64,000 nt of DNA from Spirochaetota bacterium (GTDB taxonomy: Bacteria > Spirochaetota > UBA4802 > JAFGJZ01). The stretch's first letter is position 1. Every line of letters begins with the position of its first letter. A program made the position numbers and the translations under genes. The notes under the pieces are model-generated. The model made no database searches and had not been told where the DNA came from. It was given only the letters and a program-made list of their open reading frames with translations. This document shows positions 17,010 through 49,528 of this stretch, piece after piece. The stretch is taken from NCBI GenBank assembly GCA_016934935.1, contig JAFGRW010000106.1, positions 124,001 to 188,000 of the forward strand, given 5' to 3'.

Positions 17010-17930
17010 TTGAAAACCGATATATTTGACAATCTTAAGTCGTACGGAAAAGTATTAAAAGATGAACCCATGAGCAATTACACCTCCTTTAAAACAGGTG
17101 GTTGTGCTGACTATCTGGTTTATCCCGCCTCTATGGATAAGTGTGCAGAGCTTATTGAATATTTAAATAAATCTGAATGCGGCTACACTGTTTTGGGGGG
17201 GTGCACCAATCTTGTTGTCGGAGATATGGGTATTAGGGGTGTTGTAATTATCATATCTGATTTGACCGAAGGATTTAACGAAATAAAAGTGGTCGATGAA
17301 AATACAATATATGCGGGGGCCGGTGTTAAGAAATCGGAATTTATAAATTTTACCGCGGAAAACTGTTTTGACGGAATGCATTTTATGGTTGGTATTCCGG
17401 GGTGTATTGGTGGCGGCATAATAATGAACGCCGGAACATATATGGGTACATTCTCCTCTGTTTTAAAAAAAGTCTATTTTATAAATAACCGTGGTCAGAG
17501 CAAAAGTAAAGAGATCGACTCTACCATGGGGCAATACAGACATCTTGATCTGGAAGCTGAATGTGCTGTGGTAACAGGAGCCGATTTCTCGTTGCCAAAA
17601 TCAGATAATAAAGATTTGGTTATACAAAAGATCAACGACATAATCGAAGACCGCAAGCAGAAACATCCCTGGGATTACCCCAGCGCTGGATCAGTTTTCA
17701 AAAATCCCGAAAACGAGGCCTCCTGGAAACTTGTAAACGATTGCGGTCTGAAAGGGTATTCTATAGGTGGCGCTCAGGTTTCCGAAAAGCATACCAATTT
17801 TATCATTAATAAGGGTGAAGCAAATTCTGCCGAGATTAGGGCACTCGTTTCGTATATTCAATCGCAGGTAAAAATAAAATACGGAATAGAACTTCATACC
17901 GAGATAAGAATGATAGGCGAGTTTCATTGA
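17010..17930 (+). CDS. murB: UDP-N-acetylmuramate dehydrogenase (MurB)
   Basis: YTSFKTGG, VLGGCTNLVVGD, GIPGCIGGGIIMNAG, YPSAGSVFKNP; TTG start. Confidence 0.96.
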   Translation: MKTDIFDNLKSYGKVLKDEPMSNYTSFKTGGCADYLVYPASMDKCAELIEYLNKSECGYTVLGGCTNLVVGDMGIRGVVIIISDLTEGFNEIKVVDENTIYAGAGVKKSEFINFTAENCFDGMHFMVGIPGCIGGGIIMNAGTYMGTFSSVLKKVYFINNRGQSKSKEIDSTMGQYRHLDLEAECAVVTGADFSLPKSDNKDLVIQKINDIIEDRKQKHPWDYPSAGSVFKNPENEASWKLVNDCGLKGYSIGGAQVSEKHTNFIINKGEANSAEIRALVSYIQSQVKIKYGIELHTEIRMIGEFH

Positions 17931-18739
17931 ACAGTTCTTTATACGACAAAACTTTTTGCGCTCTTGATATTGAGACTACCGGAGTAAATCCTTTCAAGGA
18001 CAAGATAATTGAGATTGGAATCGTACGGTTCCGCATAGGTCAGGAGCAGAACAATACATATCAGTCTCTTATTGACCCATTAATCCCTGTATCCGAACAA
18101 TCACGTCTTATTCACAATATTTCTCAAGAAGAACTTGAAGGTAAGCCGCTATATTCGGATATATATTGCTCTATCAAGGAGTTCATTGAAGATTCAATAC
18201 TGGTGATTCAGAACCCCCAGTTTGATCTGTCCTTTATTCAGTCAGAAAACAGAGCCGCTGGCTTGCCGTTTTTCAGTAACAGATCTTTCGATACTGTATC
18301 ACTTGCCAAGAAGGTCTTTAAAGGATTAAAAAATCATAAATTAGAAACAGTTTCCAGACACCTCAATTGTATAAGGAACTTTCACAGAGCACTTGACGAC
18401 GCGTTTTGCTGTATGGACATTTTTCTGGAGGGCGTCAGGAGAACTGATCCGGGTCGTATTTTTACTATTTCAGATTTGTATAATATTTGCGGCTTTGATA
18501 TTCAGGAGCGGGTATATAAGGATGTTGGCAGCCGTAAAATAAGAGGAGTAAACATATCGCCAGATAAAGAATACGAGATCATATATTGTGATCGGGCAGG
18601 GCAGACAACCGAAAGAAAAATACTGTGTAAAAAAATTATAAAAAACGGCTCCACATATTTTGTCCATGCCTTTTGCTACTTGAGGGAGCAAGATCGTTTT
18701 TTTAAATTTTCACGTATAAAAAATGCGACATTATGCTGA
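17927..18739 (+). CDS. DnaQ-like exonuclease (DNA pol III epsilon / PolC-type 3'-5' exonuclease domain)
   Basis: ALDIETTGVNPFKDKIIEIG, IQNPQFDLSFI, HRALDDAFCCMDIF (DEDDh). Confidence 0.9.
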   Translation: MNSSLYDKTFCALDIETTGVNPFKDKIIEIGIVRFRIGQEQNNTYQSLIDPLIPVSEQSRLIHNISQEELEGKPLYSDIYCSIKEFIEDSILVIQNPQFDLSFIQSENRAAGLPFFSNRSFDTVSLAKKVFKGLKNHKLETVSRHLNCIRNFHRALDDAFCCMDIFLEGVRRTDPGRIFTISDLYNICGFDIQERVYKDVGSRKIRGVNISPDKEYEIIYCDRAGQTTERKILCKKIIKNGSTYFVHAFCYLREQDRFFKFSRIKNATLC

Positions 18740-19136: not shown

Positions 19137-19745
19137 ATGAATCATCTTAAAAATATACCCTTATCTATTCCTTATAAAGAGATATATGCACGTCTTGGGT
19201 ATTCTGTACATAAAACTTCGCTGCAGAAAAGTGAGAAAGACAGAATAGATGCTATTATCCGTGATGGATTTTCGCTATGCAATTTCCAGGGAATTTATAA
19301 ACAGGTTAAGATTTTGTCAGTAACCCAAAAGGGTTTTATACTTGAAAGTGGTCATGAAATAGAGTCTGTATATCTTAAAGACAAACTTAAGGAGTATGGC
19401 TCAATGATAATGATGGCAGCATCTGCAGGTAGAATTGTGACTGAAACAGTTACAGAACTTATGAAGAAAGGAGATAACGGAATAGCTGTTATTTATGATG
19501 CAACCGCTAGTGAATCTGCAGATGCAGTTCTGGATTATCTTCAAAAACATATAAATATGCAGTTTGCCAGATCTGGAATGGCAATATCTCGTTTACGGTA
19601 TTCTCCTGGTTATGGGGATATTGATCTTTCAGTTCAAAAAATAATTTACGATATACTTGAATTACAAGACTATGGAATAATTCTAACAGAATATTTTCAG
19701 CTTATACCAGAAAAAAGCGTATTGGCTATTGCGGGTTTATCATGA
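19137..19745 (+). CDS. Vitamin B12-dependent methionine synthase activation-domain protein (stand-alone)
   Basis: RLRYSPGYGDIDLSVQKIIYDIL motif of the reactivation domain; adjacent to MetH-like genes. Start taken at ATG 19137 with AGG upstream; ORF track starts at 19104. Confidence 0.85.
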   Translation: MNHLKNIPLSIPYKEIYARLGYSVHKTSLQKSEKDRIDAIIRDGFSLCNFQGIYKQVKILSVTQKGFILESGHEIESVYLKDKLKEYGSMIMMAASAGRIVTETVTELMKKGDNGIAVIYDATASESADAVLDYLQKHINMQFARSGMAISRLRYSPGYGDIDLSVQKIIYDILELQDYGIILTEYFQLIPEKSVLAIAGLS

Positions 19746-21439
19746 CAAGAGAAGAATTTGCACAACTATGTCTCAAAAAAACGGTTATTCTTGATGGCTC
19801 AACCGGAATTGAGTTAATACGTCGAGAAATGAAGGTTACAGGATCGATAGAGTCATCTATTCTTGATTCTCCAGACATGCTAAACGAGCTTCAAAGGCAA
19901 TACTGTGAGGCCGGAGCAGATATTATACTCACACCTACGTTGGGTGCCAATCGTGTGAAATTACAGGAGTACTCCTTTGATGGATCAGTAAGAGAGTTGA
20001 ATCGCGAACTGGCGTCTCTGTCACTAAAAACAGCATCCAGCTTCTCGACAGAAGTCTTTGGCAATATATCATCGACCGGACGTTTTATTGAACCTTTTGG
20101 AGACCTTCTTTTTGATGATGCAGTGGATTACTTTCGTGAACAAGCAGAAGGTCTGCTCGAAGCTGGTGTAAACGGTTTTTTTATAGAGACTATGATAGAC
20201 CTTCAGGAGGCAAGGGCTGCGCTTATCGCAGTTAGAGAACTATGCGAATTGCCCGCCGTTGTATGCCTGAGTTTTGATAAAGAGGGTTATACCCTTAATG
20301 GCAGTTCGCCCCGGAGTGCAGTTGTTTCACTTCAGAGTCTTGGTGCCGATGCGGTTGGATGTAACTGCTCAACCGGCCCTGCCGAAATGATCCCGATTAT
20401 TCAAAAGATGGCAACTTGTACAAAACTGCCTCTTGTTGTTAAACCTAATGCCGGGTTGCCGAGCCTTAAAAGCGGTAAAACTGTATATTCAATGGATAAG
20501 AATGAGTTTTTAAGTTATATACCCAATTTTCACAAATCAGGAGTTTCCCTTATTGGAGGCTGCTGCGGAACTGATCCTGGATTTATCAATGATATTGCTG
20601 TCCAATGGAGCAATAAGGTACCTTTAAAAAGAGAATCTTTTATGGCGTCTGCTATAGCATCTCACCGTACTATAACCCAATTCGGAGCCGGTAATTTTAC
20701 ACTAATTGGAGAACGAATTAATCCAACCGGCAAGAAAGATTTTCAAAAACAGCTCAGAGAAAAAGACTTAACTACGATTGAAATTTTTGCGAGTGAACAG
20801 CAGGAATTCGGCGCAAATGTTCTTGATGTGAATATGGGACTTTCGGGAATTGATGAGCGTGAGATGATGTTAAAAACAATTTCACTACTAAGCCGTATAT
20901 CTCCTTTACCGTTGTGTATCGATAGTACCCGACCTGAAGTAATAGAAAGTGCCCTGAAACTATATCCGGGACGTGCACTTGTAAATTCAATTTCCGGTGA
21001 AAAAGATAGGCTTGAGATTACGCTCCCTATAGCCGCGAAATATGGAGCCATGCTTATTATTTTACCTCTGGATGATAACGGCATACCGGCAACTTTTGAA
21101 GCGAGGGTACAAGTTATAAGAAAAATAATCGATGAAGCTTCTAAATACGGTTATACAACCGATGATATGGTAATAGACGGTCTTGTTATGACAATCAGTT
21201 CCGATCAGAAAGCCGCAAAAACAACACTGGATCTGATTAACTGGTGTGCTGACAACGGGATTAACAGTGTATGCGGTTTATCAAATGTTTCATTCGGTTT
21301 GCCACAACGTGATATAGTCAACAGTGCTTTTTTGGCTTTGGGCGCGCAAAGGGGTTTGACTTCAGCAATTGCGAATCCTTCCAGCGAAAGATTGCGTAAA
21401 ATTATCAGTTCTATCAACAGGAAGGGGTGCCGTATATGA
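19742..21439 (+). CDS. metH: Methionine synthase-like protein A: homocysteine-binding + pterin-binding domains, no cobalamin domain
   Basis: LDGSTGIELIRR, VGCNCSTGPAEM and IGGCCGTDPG (Zn Cys ligands), then pterin-binding (IGERINPTGKKDFQ, DVNMG, CIDSTRPEVIESALKLYPGRALVNSISGE). Confidence 0.92.
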   Translation: MTREEFAQLCLKKTVILDGSTGIELIRREMKVTGSIESSILDSPDMLNELQRQYCEAGADIILTPTLGANRVKLQEYSFDGSVRELNRELASLSLKTASSFSTEVFGNISSTGRFIEPFGDLLFDDAVDYFREQAEGLLEAGVNGFFIETMIDLQEARAALIAVRELCELPAVVCLSFDKEGYTLNGSSPRSAVVSLQSLGADAVGCNCSTGPAEMIPIIQKMATCTKLPLVVKPNAGLPSLKSGKTVYSMDKNEFLSYIPNFHKSGVSLIGGCCGTDPGFINDIAVQWSNKVPLKRESFMASAIASHRTITQFGAGNFTLIGERINPTGKKDFQKQLREKDLTTIEIFASEQQEFGANVLDVNMGLSGIDEREMMLKTISLLSRISPLPLCIDSTRPEVIESALKLYPGRALVNSISGEKDRLEITLPIAAKYGAMLIILPLDDNGIPATFEARVQVIRKIIDEASKYGYTTDDMVIDGLVMTISSDQKAAKTTLDLINWCADNGINSVCGLSNVSFGLPQRDIVNSAFLALGAQRGLTSAIANPSSERLRKIISSINRKGCRI

Positions 21440-23580
21440 ATATATTAAATCAACTTTTGAATAATAACGGAATCCTTATCCTTGATGGAGCGACCGGAAC
21501 AGAACTGTCAGAACGCGGTATGCCTTCAGGAGTCTCTCCTGAACTTTGGGTTCTTGAGAACCCATCATCGATCAGGTCTGTACAGGATGACTATTTCAAT
21601 GCCGGAAGCGATATTGTTTACAGCTGTACTTTCGGCGGCAACAGAATAAAACTCGCTCAATATACAGATGATCTTTCAGCCGTTTTCGATATAAATCGTA
21701 AATTGGCTGCTATATCCAAAGAAAATTCTTCGGGTGGTCTTGTTTTCGGAGATATGGCTCCAACTGGAAAATTTATTGAACCATTTGGAGAACTTGCTTT
21801 TTCCGAGGCTGTTGACGTATACCGTGAGCAGGCAGCCGGGCTATGCGCGGGCGGAGTAGACGGTATTGTTATCGAAACGATGATGGACCTTCAGGAAACA
21901 AGAGCAGCGCTTCTTGGTGCCAAAGAGGCCGCAGGTGAACGTCCGGTTGTAGTTACCATGACTTTTGATGCAGATGGTTATACATTAAACGGAACTCATA
22001 TTCTTTCCGCTCTGTCTATTATTCAGTCACTTGGAGCCGATGCTTTCGGATGTAACTGTTCAACCGGTCCGGCCGAAATGCTTGAGTTAATAAAAATCAT
22101 TTCTCCATACTCCCGTATACCCTTGATGGCCAAACCAAATGCAGGGCTGCCTAAACTGATAGACGGCAAAACAGTATTTACCATGGGTGCAGAAGAGTTT
22201 TCTTCATACTCAAGGCAGTTTATTGATGCTGGAGTCAGCATAATCGGTGGATGTTGCGGAACAACACCCGGGCATATTGAGAAGGTAAAACAGGCTTTAG
22301 ATAACTATAAACCGTCAGCCAGGTCTGAAAAAAAATCATTTGTTATCGGAACAGTTAAGGATGCTCAGGTTTCCTCTGCAGATGATCCTCTATTATTGAT
22401 CAATACAGAATCAGGCGATAAGTATCGTAAATGCAGCGCTGATGAGCTTAGAGATTCTCTTGTCGAATTCTGTATACATAATAGCTACATACCAGTGATA
22501 AGATATGATAACGAAGCAAATCTTTCAGTAACTCTGAATATCTATCCGGGACGCGCACTGATTGCTGTAAAAAATCAGAACGAATTTCAGACTGTTTTGC
22601 CTCTGGCAAATAAATTCGGTGCAGTAATATTCGCTGATGGATTTTCTCCGGAAAATGGATCTGACTCTGAATGTTTAACTGATATTATTGTATGCTGCAA
22701 TGACATAAAAAACGAAAATTATATTTATGCATTTAACTTATCCGCCATTGAGCATGAAAATGACAGGCTATTTGAAATATCAATGCTTTACAAGAATGAG
22801 ATACCTGTTTTGGCGGGAAATCCGTCAGATGATCTTTGTGACTTTATTGTTGCCTATGACGCTTTAACCGGTCGTGACAAAAAACTTGAGAATCTTATGA
22901 GCAGGCTTCATCAGTCTGAAAGTAAACCCGCATCTGATAGTGATGTCGAAGATAAAGATCCGGTTTACATGGCAGTTCTAAAAGGGCGTGATAATGTAAT
23001 AGAAAATGCCATTAATGACTCACTTAAAAACGGTACCGCACCGGGTAAAATTGTCGATGAATACCTGATACCTGCAATTAATGTCGTTGGCGATCTTTAC
23101 GAAAAGAAAGAATATTTTTTACCTCAGCTTATCATGAGTGCCGATACGATGCGCAAAGGTTTTCAAATTCTGGAGCCGCTTCTTGCAGCCGAGAACAGTT
23201 CGAAAAGCAAGGACGGTCTGGTGGTCATTGCTACCGTTAAAGGTGACATCCATGATATAGGCAAGAACATTGTTGCTCTTATGCTTCGTAACTATAATTT
23301 CGACGTAATAGACCTTGGAAAAGATATAGACGACAAAACTATTGTAGATGCCGCAATTGCAAATAAAGCCGATATTATTGCACTCTCTGCTCTTATGACA
23401 ACAACCATGGTGCAGATGAAAACTGTTGTAGAAACCGCGGTAAAAGCAGGATGCAAGGCCAGGATCATAATCGGAGGCGCCGTGGTTGATCAGAACTACT
23501 GTAACGAGATAGGTGCCGATGGTTACTCTTCAGACGCGATGGAAGCAGTAAAACTTGCTCAACGATTAATACAGGTGTAG
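21427..23580 (+). CDS. metH: Methionine synthase-like protein B: homocysteine-binding + degenerate pterin-like region + cobalamin-binding domain
   Basis: FGCNCSTGPAEM and IGGCCGTTPG retained; C-terminal B12 cap/fold (GDIHDIGKNIVALML, IIIGGAVVDQ); the middle contains LNIYPGRALIAVKNQNEFQTVLPLANKFGAVIF. Confidence 0.92.
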   Translation: MPYMNILNQLLNNNGILILDGATGTELSERGMPSGVSPELWVLENPSSIRSVQDDYFNAGSDIVYSCTFGGNRIKLAQYTDDLSAVFDINRKLAAISKENSSGGLVFGDMAPTGKFIEPFGELAFSEAVDVYREQAAGLCAGGVDGIVIETMMDLQETRAALLGAKEAAGERPVVVTMTFDADGYTLNGTHILSALSIIQSLGADAFGCNCSTGPAEMLELIKIISPYSRIPLMAKPNAGLPKLIDGKTVFTMGAEEFSSYSRQFIDAGVSIIGGCCGTTPGHIEKVKQALDNYKPSARSEKKSFVIGTVKDAQVSSADDPLLLINTESGDKYRKCSADELRDSLVEFCIHNSYIPVIRYDNEANLSVTLNIYPGRALIAVKNQNEFQTVLPLANKFGAVIFADGFSPENGSDSECLTDIIVCCNDIKNENYIYAFNLSAIEHENDRLFEISMLYKNEIPVLAGNPSDDLCDFIVAYDALTGRDKKLENLMSRLHQSESKPASDSDVEDKDPVYMAVLKGRDNVIENAINDSLKNGTAPGKIVDEYLIPAINVVGDLYEKKEYFLPQLIMSADTMRKGFQILEPLLAAENSSKSKDGLVVIATVKGDIHDIGKNIVALMLRNYNFDVIDLGKDIDDKTIVDAAIANKADIIALSALMTTTMVQMKTVVETAVKAGCKARIIIGGAVVDQNYCNEIGADGYSSDAMEAVKLAQRLIQV

Positions 23581-48220: not shown

Positions 48221-48592
48221 GATTGAGAGGAATTTACGGTTGCGCGATTATCCGCTATTGCGGATGAAGTGAGGAAAGTCCGAACACCACAGAGCAGGAT
48301 GCCTGATAACGTCAGGGCGCCGCGAGGCGACGGAAAGTGCAACAGAAAATATACCGCCTAAAAATATCTGCATGCAGATGTTTTTAGGTAAGGGTGAAAA
48401 GGCGAGGTAAGAGCTCACCGCACCGGCCGTAAGGTTCGGTGGCAGTGTAAACCCTATCCGGTGCAAGGCCAAATAGGTATTCACGAAGTTGCTCGCTTTT
48501 GAATACGGGTAGGCCGCAAAGACAGTAACAGCAATGTTAATGCAAGATAGATAACCGTACTAGACAGAATTCGGCTTATTTTCCTCTCAATC
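48221..48592 (+). ncRNA. rnpB: RNase P RNA, bacterial class A
   Basis: GAGGAAAGTCCGAACACC (CR I), GCAACAGAAA, AGGGTGAAAAGGCGAGGTAAGAGCTCACCG, GCAAGATAGATAACCGTACTAGACAGAATTCGGCTTA (CR V); closing P1 GATTGAGAGGAA/TTCCTCTCAATC, 12 bp perfect. Confidence 0.97.
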
Positions 48593-49528
48593 TTTATATA
48601 AAAATCCCTGCCAAGTAAAACGTCTGTTAAATTCGTCAATTAACCTTTGCTGAACTGTTCCTTTTTCCAATCCCCATTTCGGTGCTACTAAAACATCTTC
48701 AAGAGCATCACCGGCTATACGATGAATAGTTATATCTTTTCTTAACCTTTCGATAAAATCAGCTAAAATAGATATATAAGATTTAAAATCAAGAAGTTTC
48801 ACTTCACCATTTGCATACATACTGTAAAGAGGTGTATTCTTTAATACATGAAGATGATGAATTTTTACTCCGGACACAGGCAAAGAAGATATTGTATCGG
48901 CAGTTTGCATCATATCATCCCAACTTTCACCCGGGATGCCAAGAATAATATGAACAGAGACCTGTATACCTCTATCGGCAAGAAGTATGATCGAATCACG
49001 AGTTTGGTTAAAATTGTGCATTCTGTTTAAATAGTCCAGGCTTCTATCGTGTGCAGATTGCATACCCAGTTCGACCCACAATTCAAAATCAGGACAATTG
49101 TATTCAGCTATTAGATCTGCAATTTCTGGATTAATCTCATCTGGACGTGTGCCTATCATTAATCCCATCACATCTGGAAAGCTCAAAGCCTCATCGTAAA
49201 GCTTTTTCAATGTATCCATGTTACCAGCGGTATTTGTATATGCCTGAAAATAGGCAATATATCGGGTTTTAACAGATGTGCGATTAAATGATATTTTAGC
49301 ATTTTGCATCTGCTTATATATTGATTCGTGATTACCGATGGAAGGTGAGGCAGAACCTGATTCCGAACAGAAAATACAGCCATGTCCGTTGATTCGGTTT
49401 GGGCAACCTAAAAAAGCGTTTATAGGCAGCTTAAAGATTCGAAAGCCATACTTACTTCGAAGGTAATCCCCAAAATAGTTATATGGCTTTCCGTTATAAA
49501 TATTACAGTGATCTGTCTTTGACAGCAT
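48587..49528 (-). CDS. Radical SAM protein, TIGR01212/YhcC family
   Basis: GCPNRINGHGCIFCSESGSASPS cluster motif, YFQAYTNTAG, IGTRPDEI, GMQSAHDRSL. Start likely MLSKTDH (49528). Confidence 0.92.
   Translation of the reverse strand: MLSKTDHCNIYNGKPYNYFGDYLRSKYGFRIFKLPINAFLGCPNRINGHGCIFCSESGSASPSIGNHESIYKQMQNAKISFNRTSVKTRYIAYFQAYTNTAGNMDTLKKLYDEALSFPDVMGLMIGTRPDEINPEIADLIAEYNCPDFELWVELGMQSAHDRSLDYLNRMHNFNQTRDSIILLADRGIQVSVHIILGIPGESWDDMMQTADTISSLPVSGVKIHHLHVLKNTPLYSMYANGEVKLLDFKSYISILADFIERLRKDITIHRIAGDALEDVLVAPKWGLEKGTVQQRLIDEFNRRFTWQGFLYKD

Follow-up and report, generated by a model that had tools for sequence, protein, structure and literature searches.

A tandem pair of complementary MetH-derived proteins in a Spirochaetota genome, a candidate two-protein methionine synthase

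Results

Three overlapping genes carry the modules of MetH

We analyzed a stretch of 64,000 nucleotides (the window) from a Spirochaetota bacterium (assembly GCA_016934935.1, contig JAFGRW010000106.1, positions 124,001 to 188,000 of the forward strand), which contains a locus encoding the modules of the cobalamin-dependent methionine synthase MetH. In MetH, the methyltetrahydrofolate (methyl-THF) domain (Fol) methylates cob(I)alamin, and the cobalamin module (Cap and Cob) then swings to the homocysteine domain (Hcy). Here, the modules are distributed over three overlapping genes on the forward strand, in the order Act, A, and B, with an ATGA overlap at each of the two junctions (Table 1). Act, the reactivation protein, scores 24.5 bits against PF02965, just below the 25-bit cut-off of the family, and is 56% identical to its counterpart in a sister genome, G001. 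No riboswitch was found upstream of the operon, even at E ≤ 1. An earlier note on this locus, made from the sequence alone, gave correct coordinates and motifs, including two 18-mers that lie exactly at 20963 and 22543, except that it started B at the GTG at 21427. The start is probably the ATG at 21436, because this codon forms the ATGA overlap with the stop of A and there is an AGGAAGG at 21419-21425.

Table 1. Genes and domains of the Act-A-B locus (positions in the window)
Feature	Position	Strand	Evidence
Act, free-standing cobalamin reactivation protein, 202 aa	19137..19745	+	PF02965, E = 2e-5; RYSPGYG motif
A, Hcy + Fol protein, 565 aa, without cobalamin domain	19742..21439	+	Domain matches; alignment with T. 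maritima MetH
A Hcy domain, zinc ligands C209, C274, C275	19784..20599	+	41/44 conserved sites; rate ratio 2.11
A Fol domain, intact	20708..21370	+	46/47 conserved sites; motifs
B, Hcy + Fol remnant + Cap/Cob, 714 aa counted from ATG	21436..23580	+	Domain matches
B Hcy domain, zinc ligands C208, C273, C274	21475..22299	+	44/44 conserved sites
B Fol remnant	22312..22935	+	14/47 conserved sites; three internal deletions in common with G001
B cobalamin module, Cap (PF02607) + Rossmann B12-binding (PF02310)	22963..23550	+	37/39 conserved sites; GDIHDIG

Domain searches agree with the earlier note in assigning homocysteine and pterin-binding domains to A and homocysteine and cobalamin domains to B. 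Protein A matches S-methyl_trans (residues 15-286, E = 7e-63) and Pterin_bind (residues 323-543, E = 2e-24), and aligns over both domains with Thermotoga maritima MetH (1q7m, E = 1.4e-105). Its Fol domain displays the motifs GERINP (323), IDS (393), NSIS (415), D479, and GLSN (512). Protein B matches S-methyl_trans (E = 1e-67), B12-binding_2 (E = 5e-19), and B12-binding (E = 5e-27), and the same search returned no Pterin_bind match in B. The Cap/Cob module of B, with its DxHxxG motif (GDIHDIG, window positions 23242-23262), is missing from A. The two Hcy domains share 50% identity (272 bits), and both carry the three-Cys zinc-thiolate site, the ligands being those that had been noticed previously. 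Against the MetH equivalog TIGR02082, A and B score 313 and 340 bits, respectively, far under the cut-off of 1010.85 bits.

The middle region of B is a collapsed Fol domain

The Hcy domain and the cobalamin module of B are separated by about 200 aa, a region about 70-85 aa shorter than an intact Fol domain. BLASTP aligns it with the Fol domain of A around PGRAL only (E = 7e-6). In a profile-profile comparison, the remnants of the window and G001 match intact Fol domains with 97% probability (E = 6e-11, 65 columns), a likeness that exceeds chance. The remnant has three internal deletions: one between α1 and β2, one in the helix preceding the VIDG strand, and one in the LDLINW...GLSN stretch. 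All three are also present in G001 and are therefore older than the separation of the two species. In human MTR, the pterin ring of methyl-THF is reportedly bound by three conserved residues, Asn, Asp, and Asn (PMC13376404). Matched by motif, the corresponding site (Asn411, Asp473, and Asn508 in T. maritima) is complete in A only, B having lost both Asn.

The AlphaFold model of B has a mean confidence of 86.4, with the remnant mostly at 72-90 and its loops lower. It is MetH-like throughout, and its best match is the Hcy-Fol-Cob structure of Thermus MetH (9cbr, E = 1.5e-47, template modeling score 0.74). The fold search used this full-length model only; folded alone, the remnant is modeled poorly (mean predicted local distance difference test score 56). 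The middle of B as a barrel remnant is thus well supported by sequence and moderately by the predicted structure, and the decay of the pterin domain proposed in the earlier note is borne out.

Constraint is divided between the two copies

We scored each domain at columns that are at least 95% conserved, those for Fol being drawn from 68 Fol domains of single-copy core MetH. A keeps 46 of the 47 Fol columns and B 14; B keeps all 44 Hcy columns and A 41; and B keeps 37 of the 39 Cob columns. Identities between the window and G001 are 76% for the Fol domain of A, 70% for both the Hcy domain and the cobalamin module of B, 58% for the Hcy domain of A, and 28% for the Fol remnant of B. Relative to the Fol domain of A, the distance between the two species is 1.31-fold for the Hcy domain of B and 2.11-fold for that of A. 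In 746 single-copy comparisons, which have sequences in common and are not independent, the Hcy/Fol ratio has a median of 1.03 and a maximum of 1.75, none being as extreme as the A value. Because this ratio is about twice the expectation, the Hcy domain of A is evolving under constraint that is relaxed or altered, although its zinc cysteines are kept. In G001, this domain retains 39/44 conserved sites, and three sites are altered in both species (T to I/V in the DGxxG loop, F to L, and T to S). The earlier description of two intact Hcy domains is thus an overstatement, the more so as the domain homologous to that of A is dead in all six pairs from other phyla (see below).

No methionine synthase candidate besides A and B was found in the sister genome

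In the genome from which the window comes (89% complete), A and B carry the only two Hcy domains, and the pterin domain of A is the only one besides FolP. Of five B12-binding matches, B is by far the strongest. Another full MetH, which would have weakened the case for the pair, was thus not found in this genome, but it does encode the cobalamin-free enzyme MetE.

The same Act-A-B triple occupies the same place in G001 (97% complete, 2% contamination), where the genes upstream correspond in size and order to dinB, an exonuclease gene, murB, and an exonuclease gene of the window. Since this independent genome carries the triple, we rejected mis-assembly of the locus. The searches run in G001 revealed no MetE, no Hcy domain beyond A and B, and no pterin domain beyond FolP and A. 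G001 does encode methylenetetrahydrofolate reductase (MTHFR) and a Cys/Met-metabolism pyridoxal phosphate enzyme of the homocysteine-synthesis type. Apart from its MetE, the window's own genome gave the same picture. As neither MetE nor other Hcy domains or methylfolate-type pterin domains were found in G001, A and B together are its sole methionine synthase candidate found, which supports a joint requirement for the two separately encoded proteins.

Pairs in other phyla have lost the zinc site of A

A scan of genome contigs identified six further A-B operons, in a Fibrobacter metagenome-assembled genome (MAG) and two Chitinispirillaceae MAGs (Fibrobacterota), in a Geobacteraceae MAG and the isolate Desulfobulbus rhabdoformis DSM 8777 (Thermodesulfobacteriota), and in a MAG titled Deltaproteobacteria. 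In five operons Act lies upstream of A, and the sixth (L050) is on a contig that begins within A. The zinc cysteines of the Hcy domain of A are lost in 6/6 pairs, the D. rhabdoformis protein (L004) having one Cys in the region and no site, and the DGATGTEL loop is also lost in all five pairs in which the N terminus is present. The Fol domain of A keeps 46-47/47 conserved sites, and B keeps 44/44 Hcy and 39/39 Cob sites. The Fol domain of B is full-length, with only 30-32/47 sites. Rate ratios relative to the Fol domain of A are 2.6-4.3 for the Hcy domain of A and 1.8-2.8 for the Fol domain of B. The latter retains Asp394, Asn415, Asp479, and Asn515 (A numbering), which include the pterin triad, and has substitutions common to all six pairs (E to G, G to H/N, Y to F/L, P to D/E, and N to D). 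Such a pattern is easier to reconcile with an altered function than with unconstrained decay.

The surroundings of some pairs have features of their own. A strong cobalamin riboswitch (RF00174, 108.7 bits; L004 3147-3344, forward strand) precedes the D. rhabdoformis operon. Cobalamin riboswitches usually repress when B12 is plentiful, and one upstream of a B12-dependent enzyme is odd. The Fibrobacter pair adjoins genes for TonB and TonB-dependent receptors, with two cobalamin riboswitches farther downstream, which suggests a B12-uptake neighborhood (L003 305-3409 and 9952-13064). A tetrapyrrole (corrin/porphyrin) methylase gene lies directly upstream of the Geobacteraceae operon (L055 2741-3529, forward strand).

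The pairs belong to one MetH subclade

Both kinds of pair fall into one clade with intact single-copy core MetH proteins (Hcy-Fol-Cap-Cob) from the order of the window and from Lentisphaerota, with support of 100/98 for Hcy + Cob and 91/89 for Fol. This supports an origin of the pair by duplication inside one MetH subclade, as previously suggested. The proposal that a full-length MetH was duplicated did not stand, and the separate reactivation gene is no part of the split. The reactivation protein is a third gene upstream as described, but several intact core metH genes also have a separate Act gene directly upstream, so a separate Act is ancestral and older than the split, and the ancestor was a core MetH.

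Trees of Hcy, Fol, and Hcy + Cob rejected neither a grouping of the window pair with the other-phylum pairs nor their separation (approximately unbiased test, p = 0.15, 0.35, and 0.43; in further trees, 0.30 and 0.41), and both a single duplication and several would be compatible with them. D. rhabdoformis is the sole carrier of the pair among 116 relatives, which fits horizontal spread.

Two other arrangements were encountered. Neighboring Hcy-domain proteins of 609 and 1139 aa, from the same order as the window, were set aside as different; the 609-aa partner has no Fol or Cob match and the length of the Hcy + MTHFR family PRK08645, and the 1139-aa partner is a MetH with a long reading frame. 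In a Clostridiaceae MAG, a core metH appears to be broken within Fol into reading frames of 474 and 342 aa (L031 916-3366), either by a sequencing error or by a further split.

Other features of the window

The gene at 17927-18739 (forward strand) combines an N-terminal exonuclease domain (RNase_T) with a C-terminal WYL-like match, which is unusual; G001 has a 270-aa gene at this place. A bacterial RNase P RNA of class A lies at 48224-48593 (forward strand).

Discussion

We propose, with a probability of roughly 0.7, that a core MetH was duplicated in tandem, that complementary losses turned the two copies into A and B, and that these act as a two-protein methionine synthase. Copy A would have lost Cob and retained a working methyl-THF site. 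Copy B would have retained the homocysteine site, under full constraint, together with the only cobalamin module of MetH type found, its Fol barrel collapsing into a spacer. Provided that the pair uses methyl-THF, the methyl group would have to be transferred in trans, as only A has an active Fol domain and only B a cobalamin module. The Fol domain of A would methylate the cob(I)alamin of B, perhaps within an A-B complex; this is the best explanation available and had been suggested in the earlier note. The methylcobalamin would then swing to B's own Hcy domain, whose full conservation makes it the most likely site of homocysteine methylation, and oxidized B would be reactivated by Act with S-adenosylmethionine. 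The Hcy domain of A would be a redundant or vestigial barrel. In human MTR, the Hcy and Fol barrels are locked rigidly together (PMC13376404), and such packing is probably why the barrel persists in A.

Several observations weigh against this proposal. With its zinc ligands and 41/44 conserved sites, the Hcy domain of A may be catalytic. The pair need not be essential in its own genome, which encodes MetE. Because the Fol domain of B in the six other-phylum pairs keeps the pterin triad and has common substitutions, B may there be altered or self-sufficient instead of decayed; these genomes also hold further Hcy-domain proteins, in several cases clearly a complete MetH. The genomes compared are mostly draft MAGs. 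Finally, while the Hcy domains of A and B belong to one subclade, their strict sisterhood, expected in the earlier note, was neither shown nor rejected (approximately unbiased test, p = 0.43).

The first of these observations leads to a different, unlikely scenario in which the Hcy domain of A is a second working acceptor site. Both Hcy domains would then draw on the methylcobalamin of B, either with a different acceptor each (homocysteine and another thiol) or with homocysteine in both. All three zinc cysteines are kept, as are most conserved sites in both species, and the three sites changed in both are what an altered pocket might show. The domain nevertheless evolves at about twice the expected rate, its homologue without a zinc site in 6/6 other-phylum pairs indicates that it is dispensable, and no adjoining gene suggests another acceptor. 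We thus found no positive evidence for the second methyl acceptor that the earlier note had raised. It is more improbable still that B makes methionine independently of folate, receiving its methyl group from another corrinoid methyltransferase, e.g. of the MttB/MtgB type, with A serving otherwise. In favor of this, the Fol domain of B is dead, the cobalamin module of B has good scores against corrinoid proteins of methylamine and betaine metabolism as well, and in marine bacteria a corrinoid protein is common to betaine demethylation and methionine synthesis (PMC12478193). Against this, conservation within the pair is highest in the Fol domain of A, A itself lacks a cobalamin domain to receive the methyl group, the A and B genes overlap, and MTHFR is present. 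That the pair is a decaying, non-functional relic with MetE doing the work, as the presence of MetE in its own genome might suggest, is the least probable, since G001 has the pair without MetE, the frames are open in both species, and the Fol domain of A and the Hcy and Cob domains of B keep nearly all conserved sites.

Returning to a two-protein enzyme formed by duplication and complementary loss, we tentatively consider a broader scenario, on balance doubtful, in which MetH was split in this way more than once and in mirror image. In the genus of the window, the Fol domain of B would have died first. In a patchy and probably horizontally moved operon family, the Hcy domain of A would have died first, and the Fol domain of B would have taken a conserved new form, perhaps able to bind a different donor. 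The two routes would have reached the same solution, in which a homocysteine-cobalamin module is served in trans by a folate module.

When a multidomain enzyme has been split, usually only the end state can be observed. For MetH, several stages are found side by side: core MetH still intact and in single copy, a pair in which the Fol domain of B is dead, pairs in which the Hcy domain of A is dead, and a clean break between Hcy-Fol and Cob. Because these stages survive together, the transition from one chain to two proteins can be tested with extant genes, and the pair would be a natural system in which to study how a cobalamin module is methylated in trans. Annotating either A or B singly as methionine synthase would be wrong.

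Functional splitting of MetH is already known (PMC5764234; PMC7857596), so the principle of a split enzyme is sound. We found no tandem or duplicated MetH pairs in the open-access literature, a weak negative, nor any description there of a route by duplication and complementary decay. The three-part MetH of Phaeobacter works (PMC5764234). As proposed for the pair described here, the Phaeobacter inhibens proteins PGA1_c13370, c16040, and c13350, like Ruegeria MtgC-MtgD-MtgE, divide the Hcy, Fol, and Cob functions among separate proteins that must cooperate in trans, with separate reactivation proteins. However, they have each module once, whereas here Hcy occurs twice and Fol once plus a remnant. 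Moreover, their subunits have been argued not to be simply separated from classical MetH (PMC12478193), unlike the present split, which would have proceeded through duplication of one core MetH and left both copies with a redundant partner barrel. T. maritima MetH (TM0268) similarly lacks an Act domain and has a separate reactivation protein (TM0269), and A aligns with its 1-566 Hcy-Fol fragment, but its Hcy, Fol, and Cob reside on one core protein and there is no duplicated pair. In a relative, genome G042 (L107 4051-7240), an Hcy-Fol protein (567 aa) is followed in the next gene by Cob (248 aa), with Act adjacent upstream; here core MetH is cleanly broken in two with no duplication involved, and the pair has no second Hcy domain. 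MetE, too, is a methionine synthase whose double barrel evolved through gene duplication and subsequent divergence, but it is unrelated and cobalamin-free, and both its halves remain in one chain (PMC539065).

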